Shown piece by piece: positions 12,363-21,932 of a stretch of 55,067 nt of DNA. Every line of letters starts with the position of its first letter. Within the stretch, counting starts at the first letter, position 1. Origin of the DNA: Bacteroidales bacterium (lineage in GTDB: Bacteria; Bacteroidota; Bacteroidia; Bacteroidales; UBA932). The position numbers were made by a program, and so were the translations under genes. Below the pieces are notes generated by a model that had not been told where the DNA came from, searched no databases, and was given only the letters and a program-made list of their open reading frames with translations. The stretch is taken from positions 1 to 55,067 of the forward strand of contig JAFZQO010000020.1 in NCBI GenBank assembly GCA_017620335.1, written 5' to 3'.

Positions 12363-12395
12363 AACACTTTTGTTTAGATTAATAACATTTTTGTT
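12363..12395. promoter_or_regulatory. Paired palindrome site A (AACAnnnnTGTT x2, 9-bp spacer)
   Basis: AACACTTTTGTT (12363-12374) and AACATTTTTGTT (12384-12395) are separated by exactly 9 bp (21 bp between centres, two helical turns). The pair lies directly after the valS stop and 21 bp before tatA. Identical geometry occurs at 17379 and 21495. It looks like a site for two dimers of one DNA-binding protein. Confidence 0.75.
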
Positions 12396-12416
12396 AACCT
12401 ATAAAATGCTGGAATT

Positions 12417-12641
12417 ATGATAGCTTATCCTTTGTTTCTTGGCAGTCTCGGCTTCTGGGAGATCTTCCTCATCGTCCTTGTGATCGTCCTTCTGTTCGGA
12501 GGCAAGAAAATCCCCGAGCTCATGCGTGGCGTAGGTAAGGGAGTGAAGAGTTTCAAGCAGGGAATGAACGAAGTCGAGGACGAACTGAAGGAGGCCACCA
12601 AGGAGTTCGACTCCATTACCAAGGAGGAGGAGAAGAAATAG
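12417..12641 (+). CDS. tatA: Twin-arginine translocase subunit TatA
   Basis: A 74-residue protein with a single N-terminal membrane helix (about residues 12-27, IFLIVLVIVLLFGG), the hinge GGKKIPELMRGVGKG that forms the amphipathic helix, and a charged acidic/Lys-rich tail. With TatC it exports folded proteins carrying twin-arginine signals. No TatB gene lies beside it, so TatA probably does both jobs, as in other two-component Tat systems. TatC follows after 3 bp. Confidence 0.95.
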   Translation: MIAYPLFLGSLGFWEIFLIVLVIVLLFGGKKIPELMRGVGKGVKSFKQGMNEVEDELKEATKEFDSITKEEEKK

Positions 12642-12644
12642 GCC

Positions 12645-13436
12645 GTGGCTTCCGTCAGCGGGAAAGGCATGAAGGAGATGTCCTTCTGGGACCATCTCGA
12701 CGAGCTGAGGGGGACTCTGTTCCGCTCGGTCCTGATTATTTTGGCCTTTTTCACTGTCGGTTTCTTCCTCAAGGAGACGCTTTTCGACGGGGTCATCCTC
12801 AGGCCGACGAGGCCTGATTTCTGGCTGTACCGGCTGCTGGGGGTGGACCTTTCCATCAATCTCATCAACATCGACATCGCCGCACAGTTCTTCACCCACA
12901 TCAAGGTGACCTTCGTGTGCGCGCTGGTCGTCAGTTTCCCACTCATCTGCTATGAGCTGTGGAAGTTCATCGCCCCCGGCCTGTATGACAGGGAGAAGAG
13001 GGTGATGCGCAAGGCCTTCGGCCTGGGCGCGGGTCTCTTCTACCTGGGCATCGTGGTCGGTTATTTCATCGTGATGCCGGTCCTGCTGGTGTTCTTCAAC
13101 GGTTACCAGGTGAGCGGAAGCGTCGAGAACACCTTCGCCCTGACTTCCTACATCTCCATTTTCCTGGCGATGGTGTTCGTGATGGGGCTCCTGTTCGAGT
13201 TCCCGTCCGTGCTAGCCGTACTCTCGCATTTCGGCATCATAACCCGCGATACCATGAAGAAGTCCCGCCGCTATGCGGTGGTGGCCATACTGATACTGTC
13301 GGCAATCCTGACGCCGACGGGGGATCCCTTCACCATGCTGGTGGTGGCGGTCCCGCTTTATCTTCTCTACGAGTTCAGCATCCTTATCTGCAAGCCGGCG
13401 CAGCCGGAGGAGGCCAGCGATGATCTCGATCAGTGA
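12645..13436 (+). CDS. tatC: Twin-arginine translocase subunit TatC
   Basis: Polytopic inner-membrane receptor for twin-arginine signal peptides. Contains the N-terminal signature MSFWDHLDELRGTLFRS with the key Glu and Arg, the periplasmic/loop motif FPLICYELWKFIAPGLY, and about six membrane segments ending with ILSAILTPTGDP. The frame opens with GTG at 12645, 3 bp after tatA; ATG at 12669 is an alternative start. The 3' end overlaps the next gene by 17 bp, suggesting translational coupling. Confidence 0.95.
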   Translation: MASVSGKGMKEMSFWDHLDELRGTLFRSVLIILAFFTVGFFLKETLFDGVILRPTRPDFWLYRLLGVDLSINLINIDIAAQFFTHIKVTFVCALVVSFPLICYELWKFIAPGLYDREKRVMRKAFGLGAGLFYLGIVVGYFIVMPVLLVFFNGYQVSGSVENTFALTSYISIFLAMVFVMGLLFEFPSVLAVLSHFGIITRDTMKKSRRYAVVAILILSAILTPTGDPFTMLVVAVPLYLLYEFSILICKPAQPEEASDDLDQ

Positions 13437-20258: not shown

Positions 20259-20660
20259 TTTACAAAACTAAACAGAGACTGCAGTAGCCAAGATGAAGAC
20301 ATGAAAATACCTTTACCATTAAATAAAATAAAACGTCTTAAAGTTCTGATTAATAGAGTGGTATTCTTATTAAAATTAGATATAATCCAACTTGATGGCA
20401 AAAGATATGTCATGCGTCACATCATTTTCTTCAAGCTTAATTTAAGTCAGATAACATAACTCCCTGAATATTAACCATATTTAAGAAGGGCACACCCTAT
20501 ATAATAAAATCTTATTATACAAATGTAATAACGTATGTTGGATTTACAATTTCGAATCCAAAAATGAGGCAATTTCCTTTTGTAATATGCCTGTTCAGTA
20601 TTTAAAATGGCGTTTTTCATCAACAGAATTGTCTTTGCGTTTTTTTCGATTCTCCCGTGT
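20259..20660. other. AT-rich gap without a recognisable gene
   Basis: About 400 bp of strongly AT-rich DNA between two GC-rich genes. It holds a perfect 8-bp hairpin TATAATAA/TTATTATA (20500-20519) and GGATT/AATCC pairing near 20537-20556. Short open frames exist (for example 20301-20459 on the plus strand, rich in Lys, Ile and Leu) but none resembles a known protein. Either spacer DNA or a decayed insertion. Confidence 0.4.
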
Positions 20661-20666
20661 AATGTG

Positions 20667-20674
20667 TAACTTTG
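20667..20674 (+). promoter_or_regulatory. -7 box for queA
   Basis: TAACTTTG, 22 bp before ATG 20697; no TTTG at the exact -33 distance. Confidence 0.55.
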
Positions 20675-20696
20675 CGTCAAATTCGAGAATCTCACG

Positions 20697-21932
20697 ATGA
20701 TACCCGATATCCATATCGAAGATTACAATTATCCTCTCTCTGATGAGCGGATAGCCAAATATCCCCTCCCGGAACGCGACGCATCGAAATTGCTGCGTTA
20801 CCGCGACGGACGCGTGGACGAATTCATTTTCCGCGATATTCCCGACCTTCTTCCCGAAGGATCGGTCATGGTTTTCAACGATACCAAGGTCGTACCCGCA
20901 CGCCTGCATTTCCAGCGGGAGTCCGGTGCGCATATCGAGGTTTTCTGCCTTCAGCCCGTGGAGCCGGCGGAGTACAACACCGTCTTCGCTGCCACTTCCC
21001 GCTGCGTCTGGCGCTGCGTCATCGGCAATTCCAAGCGCTGGAAGGACGACCTTCTCCGCCTTTACGGCAGTGAAGCCGATCCGACACTTGCCAGGATGGA
21101 CCTAAGGGCGCATCTGGTCGCCAAGGAAGGGGAGACGGGCATAGTCGAGTTCACCTGGGCGGACGGCGCGCCCTTCTCCGCTGTCCTGGAGGCATGCGGA
21201 ACCGTGCCGATCCCCCCGTATCTGAACCGTGAAACCGAGGACGTAGACCTCGAAAGGTACCAGACATTGTATGCCCGCTTCCGTGGTTCCGTCGCGGCTC
21301 CGACGGCAGGCCTTCACTTCACGGAAGCGGTCCTTCAGCGCATCCGCGAGAAGGGCATTTCCACCGAAACCATATGCCTTCACGTCGGCGCCGGCACTTT
21401 CCTGCCGGTCAAGAGTTCCAATGTCGCCGATCATCCGATGCATAGTGAGCCTTTTGTGGTCAAGAAGGCCTTCATTCAGAGTATCAGTGAAAGAAACAAT
21501 ATTGTTAATAATTATAACAAAAATGTTATAGCCGTTGGGACCACTTCTGTGCGCACTTTGGAGTCCTTATACTACGTCGGAGTGAGTTGTATCGAGACCG
21601 GAAGGCCCGCTCCTGTCGAGCAGTGGTGTCCGTACACCAGGGAGTATCCGTATTCGCTTGAAGAATCGCTTGGCGCCATTGTGGAATACCTGGACAGGAA
21701 CGGCCTCGACGAGCTCAAACTCGAAACCCGCATCATCATCGTTCCCGGCTTCCGCTTCCGTGTGGTCGATATGCTGGTCACCAATTTCCACCAGCCCGAA
21801 AGCACCCTCATCCTTCTTGTTTCCGCCTTCGTGGGAGGTGACTGGAGGACCATCTACGACTATGCCCTCGCGCACGGTTTCCGTTTCCTGAGCTACGGAG
21901 ACAGCTCATTGCTGCACCGCGCCAGTTTGTAG
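20697..21932 (+). CDS. queA: S-adenosylmethionine:tRNA ribosyltransferase-isomerase
   Basis: Transfers and isomerises the ribosyl moiety of SAM onto 7-aminomethyl-7-deazaguanine in tRNA, making epoxyqueuosine. Signatures: YPLPERDASKLL, MVFNDTKVVPARL, APTAGLHFT, HVGAGTFLPVK, AVGTTSVRTLES and the C-terminal TNFHQPESTLILLVSAF. At 411 residues it is longer than the E. coli enzyme, with extra sequence around residues 75-125. Codons 265-280 (NNIVNNYNKNV) are conspicuously AT-rich because they contain paired palindrome site C. Other queuosine genes are not in the window. The acyltransferase gene follows from its own promoter, which overlaps the queA stop. Confidence 0.95.
   Translation: MIPDIHIEDYNYPLSDERIAKYPLPERDASKLLRYRDGRVDEFIFRDIPDLLPEGSVMVFNDTKVVPARLHFQRESGAHIEVFCLQPVEPAEYNTVFAATSRCVWRCVIGNSKRWKDDLLRLYGSEADPTLARMDLRAHLVAKEGETGIVEFTWADGAPFSAVLEACGTVPIPPYLNRETEDVDLERYQTLYARFRGSVAAPTAGLHFTEAVLQRIREKGISTETICLHVGAGTFLPVKSSNVADHPMHSEPFVVKKAFIQSISERNNIVNNYNKNVIAVGTTSVRTLESLYYVGVSCIETGRPAPVEQWCPYTREYPYSLEESLGAIVEYLDRNGLDELKLETRIIIVPGFRFRVVDMLVTNFHQPESTLILLVSAFVGGDWRTIYDYALAHGFRFLSYGDSSLLHRASL
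21495..21527. promoter_or_regulatory. Paired palindrome site C inside queA
   Basis: AACAATATTGTT (21495-21506) and AACAAAAATGTT (21516-21527), again 9 bp apart. It lies inside the queA reading frame, encoding NNIVNNYNKN just before the conserved AVGTTS motif, so the protein tolerates a DNA-level signal. Confidence 0.75.

Follow-up and report, generated by a model that had tools for sequence, protein, structure and literature searches.

Genes and Paired Palindromes at the Locus

The window, by which we mean the whole stretch of DNA that was analyzed (55,067 nucleotides), comes from a genome belonging to the Candidatus Cryptobacteroides group, gut bacteria most of which are uncultured. It contains valS (9705..12362, + strand), a cinA-like gene (17426..18697, − strand), a gene for a 145-aa XRE-type helix-turn-helix protein (19758..20195, − strand), queA (20697..21932, + strand; so named in the earlier note as well), and a rarA/mgsA-like gene (31312..32646, + strand). 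Except for dnaA and the XRE-type protein, gene names were assigned by reading the sequences. The core of dif, the chromosome dimer resolution site (ACACAATTTATATTATGTTAA), lies at 28834..28854 (+ strand), and this 21-mer is identical in Bacteroidales bacterium CF, G294, and others.

A scan of the window for AACAN4TGTT-N9-AACAN4TGTT, which consists of two 12-bp palindromes with a 9-bp gap, returned three exact matches, none of them assigned to a strand. Site 1 (12363..12395) begins at the base immediately following the valS stop, with 21 bp separating its end from a TatA-like ORF at 12417. Site 2 (17379..17411) is located between a convergent dipeptidase-like gene, whose stop it overlaps, and cinA, whose stop is 14 nt from the end of the site. 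Site 3 (21495..21527) is within queA, in frame 0, and encodes NNIVNNYNKNV. The positions, palindromes, spacing, and gene contexts reported in the earlier note are all confirmed, with exact distances now added, as is its view that three matches are not due to chance: dinucleotide-shuffled versions of the window contain a mean of 0.04 matches, even with up to 3 mismatches.

Copy Number and Form of the Motif Across the Genus

The element has a low copy number. The source assembly (54 contigs, 2.76 Mb) contains five exact copies vs. none of the reversed pattern, and a sixth place with one mismatch at C6:83763, the reversed pattern again having no match at zero or one mismatch; at three mismatches there are 13 motif matches vs. 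8 for the reversed control. Three of the five exact copies are in the window, so the concentration described earlier stands, but restriction to one 9-kb stretch is too strong a claim, because the assembly has five. Exact copies were found in 44 of 61 genomes of the same genus vs. 2 of 40 genomes from other families (one copy each), with the reversed control at zero in all rows for both sets. The exact motif is thus enriched over its control in genome and genus alike, contrary to one of the two outcomes that the earlier note named as refuting, and a chance origin is ruled out by these controls together with the shuffles. Among the matches listed, motif-bearing records came from Candidatus Cryptobacteroides, Bacteroidales MAGs, and also unrelated organisms.

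When the gap was allowed to vary from 0 to 30 bp, 323 of 400 genus genomes had a match (128 of the 150 of high quality), and the reversed control matched in 10 genomes, counted by eye. Among the places listed, a by-eye count gave a gap of 9 bp in 62 of 75, a gap of 1 bp in 6, and other sizes in 7; a 9-bp gap is strongly preferred across the genus. The minor class with a gap of 1 (TGTT-N-AACA in the middle) occurs in at least six places (G340:C24, G378:C12, G237:C27, G386:C170, G267:C109, and G044:C23), and is either a different element or a variant.

For genomes without an exact copy, 8 of 12 fetched dif regions contain a copy with one mismatch. Six of these eight differ by an A/T swap at an inner position of AACA/TGTT, and seven occupy the valS, cinA, or rarA spots. 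The dif regions of G052, G116, G196, and G280, some of which end at contig ends, had no one-mismatch copy. The constraint across the genus is therefore a little looser than the pattern first described. In the pooled consensus, bases flanking the half-sites are A/T in 93–99% and the interior is A/T-rich; because each site's reverse complement was added in building it, the consensus is symmetric by design, and this symmetry is not evidence. The 21-bp spacing between palindrome centers suggests binding by two dimers on a single face of the DNA, as the earlier note had proposed, and we regard this arrangement as plausible.

Fixed Positions at Genes

The loci fetched contain 173 distinct exact sites, a minority of them contributed by unrelated organisms. 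Large classes are found at the 3′ end of cinA, within mnmE (24 sites), at the 3′ end of valS, and upstream of rarA, and their positions are conserved to the nucleotide level. In the valS class, to which site 1 belongs along with 13 others, the site is 0, 3, or 6 nt past the stop in 8, 5, and 1 of the 14 genes, respectively, and the gene downstream of valS varies from genome to genome. Of the 27 cinA-linked sites, 20 are 14 nt past the stop. The rarA-linked sites of relatives (eight cases) are 30–74 nt upstream of the gene; the copy of rarA in the window has no exact site. Relatives thus retain sites at corresponding loci, whose absence was the other refuting outcome named in the earlier note: the valS, cinA, rarA, and mnmE positions recur, while the site classes listed for the 173 contain no other copy in queA.

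The mnmE copy is a clear case of a DNA site dictating protein residues in one codon register throughout the genus. The site is present in 22 of 23 compared proteins, and in all 22 it occupies a single alignment column and a single reading frame. It encodes N-x-x-V...N-x-x-V with intervening residues that vary, and mnmE of CF, which is without the site, has unrelated residues at that column. Within coding sequence, the constraint is on the DNA.

Clustering Around dif

We located dif using E. coli-type arms, first in CF and G294 and then in the window, and found it in 64 of 68 genomes (up to 3 mismatches). Distances to exact sites were counted in 36 genomes, namely 28 of the 44 that bear the motif plus eight chosen for completeness or for several sites on a single contig; the remaining motif-bearing genomes were outside the rows listed or, like G056, had no dif, and in G025, G026, and G381 the dif has 2–3 mismatches. 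Sites on the same contig as dif numbered 29 of 91 within 25 kb, 36 within 50 kb, and 41 within 100 kb, compared to expectations of at most 1.9, 3.9, and 7.8, respectively, where the first of two exact dif matches was taken in both G017 and G046 (the other choice in G017 removes one site). At least one such site near dif is present in 25 of the 36 genomes. Another 49 of the 91 do not share a contig with dif; assembly fragmentation may or may not account for this. Among the 119 short loci listed that were retrieved with the motif, at least six also hold dif, including that of CF.

The distance between site and dif is not fixed: the nearest site in the genus is 4.8 kb away, that in CF 2.2 kb, and sites occur as far out as 120 kb. 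No polarity toward dif was detected in 42 sites: the half whose interior is pure A/T faces dif in 15, faces away in 10, and is uninformative in 17 (p = 0.42). Within the replication terminus, the 9-kb stretch of the window that holds the three sites makes up the dif-proximal portion.

A second sequence resembling dif, ACACAATTCGGATTATGTTAA, whose spacer is altered, was observed in 7 of the 68 genomes searched (G000:C51:402, G057:C10:212, G019:C26:1199, G017:C29:13511, G011:C122:1289, G271:C37:13459, and G023:C4:130710), and is perhaps a mobile element that uses Xer/dif.

Origin and Terminus Markers

The complete genome of Bacteroidales bacterium CF has three places with at most one mismatch, at 2.2, 27.6, and 44.2 kb from dif. 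The reversed control also matches there (once at one mismatch, and at two mismatches 8 times vs. 10 for the motif), so what counts as evidence in CF is the clustering. A looser AAC-N6-GTT pair was found in 40 stretches of CF only at 1,226,264, 1,272,641, and 1,284,733, and the terminus genes of CF are orthologous to those flanking the sites of G294 and the window. Gene-strand-corrected GC3 skew, sampled in 40 stretches, is mostly above zero between 70 kb and about 1.25 Mb and mostly below zero starting at 1.4 Mb; all three 16S genes, at 0.43, 0.55, and 1.15 Mb, point rightward; and an mnmG-like gene has parS-like palindromes next to it, at positions 68 and 669. Based on the skew change, the direction of the 16S genes, and the positions of parS and dif, the CF sites are at the terminus, opposite parS. 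Gene strand bias in CF is weak and opposite in direction to expectation. Skew in G294 turns from positive to negative at about 130–150 kb, some 50–70 kb off its dif, and the window, G381, and the contigs with parS gave no clear skew signal.

The group's parS is TGTTCCACGTGGAACA-like and located at an mnmG-like gene (for example, G000:C7:27890 and 29551, as well as the two CF positions), and is a marker of the origin region. Palindromes of this type are present in 11 of 12 Cryptobacteroides genomes (G294 is without); all four genomes that were inspected have them next to mnmG, and no motif-bearing contig has one. The reversed control gave one match, in G381. Canonical parS was absent at up to 3 mismatches from the site contigs scanned. 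The gene dnaA is near the terminus rather than parS: it shares a contig with dif in 7 of 12 Cryptobacteroides genomes (G294:C3, G381:C29, G054:C35, G057:C20, G353:C4, G044:C1, and G113:C11), and in these the two are 27–54 kb apart. The corresponding distance in CF is 0.4 Mb.

Other Lineages

In CF the 3′ end of cinA carries a degenerate copy with 3 mismatches, and in a third lineage, HGW-Bacteroidetes-14, an exact copy is found 31 nt past a cinA-like gene. Most other Bacteroidales families are without such a site near dif: ten dif regions from other families (336 kb) had no match at up to 2 mismatches, and 14 further short ones had nothing below 2 mismatches. The looser AAC-N6-GTT core does occur in other families, exactly in G090 and with one mismatch in G077, both at most 0.7 kb from dif. 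The place in G090 (C67, about 0.7 kb from dif; L287) reads AACCGCCTGGTT-GTTATAGAG-AACCCCAAGGTT and has equal geometry with AACC/GGTT half-sites. A scan for fourfold symmetry was used for this place only, and its reversed control is useless because reversal preserves the symmetry.

A Candidate Binding Protein

The XRE-type protein encoded between sites 2 and 3 matches PF01381 (28.1 bits, cut-off 23) and has a conserved C-terminal strand that is IVVFYDDNTYQE-like; no relative of solved structure and no informative NCBIfam match were found for it. Relatives, mostly single-copy, are present in 19 of 22 Cryptobacteroides genomes, in CF, and in 12 of 13 genomes from other families. In 4 of 12 other families the gene is on one contig with dif and at most 13.1 kb away vs. 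0.1 expected, a limit chosen after seeing the data; the four places, at 2.4–13 kb, are G077:C34, G083:C12, G062:C9, and G090:C67. No relative of pyrD, queA, or cinA was found in the fetched region of G077. G045 and G206 have neither the XRE protein nor dif.

As a binder of the 33-bp element this protein is a weak candidate and an unlikely one, because one genome (G348) has dif and looser sites with no XRE match. The reading is also disfavored by the other families that lack a nearby motif and by helix 3, which is variable within the genus.

Proposed Role

Judging from sequence, the element is probably a docking site for a putative protein that handles the chromosome end; its clustering at dif ties it to chromosome organization, one of the roles first suggested. 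In the best reading, to which we assign a probability of roughly 0.57, these are matS-like sites that mark the terminus and are bound by a terminus organizer or anchor like MatP. Each 33-bp element would be bound by a sequence-specific protein, most simply in the form of two dimers that share one DNA face and are separated by two helical turns, and a few sites per chromosome, spanning about 200 kb around dif, would mark the replication terminus. The putative protein, for which MatP would be the best comparison, is most likely a terminus organizer or anchor that acts as MatP does on matS, and may bridge sites, tether dif and its surroundings to the machinery of division or of FtsK/Xer, or both.

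It is a more speculative and, in our estimate, unlikely proposal that Bacteroidota have a terminus-organizing system of their own, unrelated to MatP, Tus, or RTP, with a few two-dimer sites around dif that are read in this lineage by the XRE-type protein, whose gene lies beside dif in Cryptobacteroides and several other Bacteroidales families, and with different or weaker sites in those other families. Among the papers listed by a literature search, none showed a site-specific terminus system for Bacteroidota, and according to the excerpt of PMC3091885 there had been no study of dimer resolution in Bacteroidetes. Bacteroidota are a dominant gut phylum, and their handling of the chromosome end is now directly testable, since dif has been mapped, the conserved loci are listed, and the 33-bp element can serve as a probe.

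Among the alternatives, the one that fares best, though we consider it improbable, is a fork barrier like Tus/Ter or RTP/Ter, at which the bound protein would stop or pause forks in the terminus. The sites are few and on either side of dif, the RTP site binds two dimers, and among the flanking genes, rarA has a role in fork maintenance. Known trap sites, however, are non-palindromic and oriented toward dif (PMC6549158, in excerpt), whereas the core here is palindromic by definition of the pattern and its purer halves show no preferred direction; in the excerpted literature, reports of tus and rtp are confined to four clades. A polar fork trap fits poorly given the lack of orientation toward dif. 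Less probable again is an accessory role in resolving dimers or segregating the terminus, in which the protein would load or activate FtsK/XerCD at dif and would not organize a domain: the sites cluster at dif and approach it to within a few kilobases, but they also reach 120 kb from it at no set distance, and known XerCD accessory sites adjoin the recombination site.

We think it doubtful, more so than either of these, that a transcription factor with a small regulon uses the element as an ordinary operator, found near dif by coincidence. The eight rarA-linked sites upstream of their gene and the position of site 1 before the TatA-like ORF would suit an operator, but only the rarA class is upstream of a gene, and the large classes within mnmE, at the end of valS, and at the end of cinA, where genes converge, are not placed like promoter operators, as had been noted for the window. 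The inconstant gene after valS and the clustering at dif also argue against this reading. An origin-side, parS-like centromere, a reading prompted by dnaA, which shares a contig with a site (at most one mismatch) in 11 of 12 Cryptobacteroides genomes, and favored by one G057 site near parA-parB-like genes, is very improbable and was rejected on the skew, 16S direction, parS, and dif of CF, the separation of parS-type palindromes from motif contigs, and the proximity of dnaA to dif. Nucleoid occlusion, also suggested earlier, is unlikely as the main role because sites of the SlmA and Noc type avoid the terminus.

Comparison With Known Systems

By sequence, the element belongs to none of the matS, RBM, ZapT, and fork-trap systems. 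Like matS (GTGACRNYGTCAC), it is a short palindromic site repeated around dif both within and between genes. It differs in being a 33-bp pair with few copies per genome and a sequence unrelated to the 13-bp matS, whose 23 E. coli copies span 800 kb; MatP has been linked to bacteria that carry Dam (PMC3330122, in excerpt). With Tus/Ter and RTP/Ter it shares a small number of sites, here for a putative protein, that flank dif, whereas the sites of those systems are non-palindromic and point toward dif (PMC6549158, in excerpt) and no orientation was found here.

The closest analog for terminus sites within genes is ZapT of Caulobacter, which has about 10 ChIP sites that are terminus-biased and mostly inside ORFs, and which links the terminus and the Z-ring (excerpt of PMC7188993). 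ZapT is of MerR type, with no consensus motif found according to that excerpt, whereas the motif here is sharp and its reader putative. The RBMs of RefZ in Bacillus are on the chromosome arms and near oriC and have a role in sporulation, in contrast to sites at dif; for positions fixed throughout a genus, however, they are the closest analog, being five nearly palindromic motifs at genus-conserved positions, each of which RefZ is proposed to bind as a pair of dimers (PMC6657595, in excerpt).
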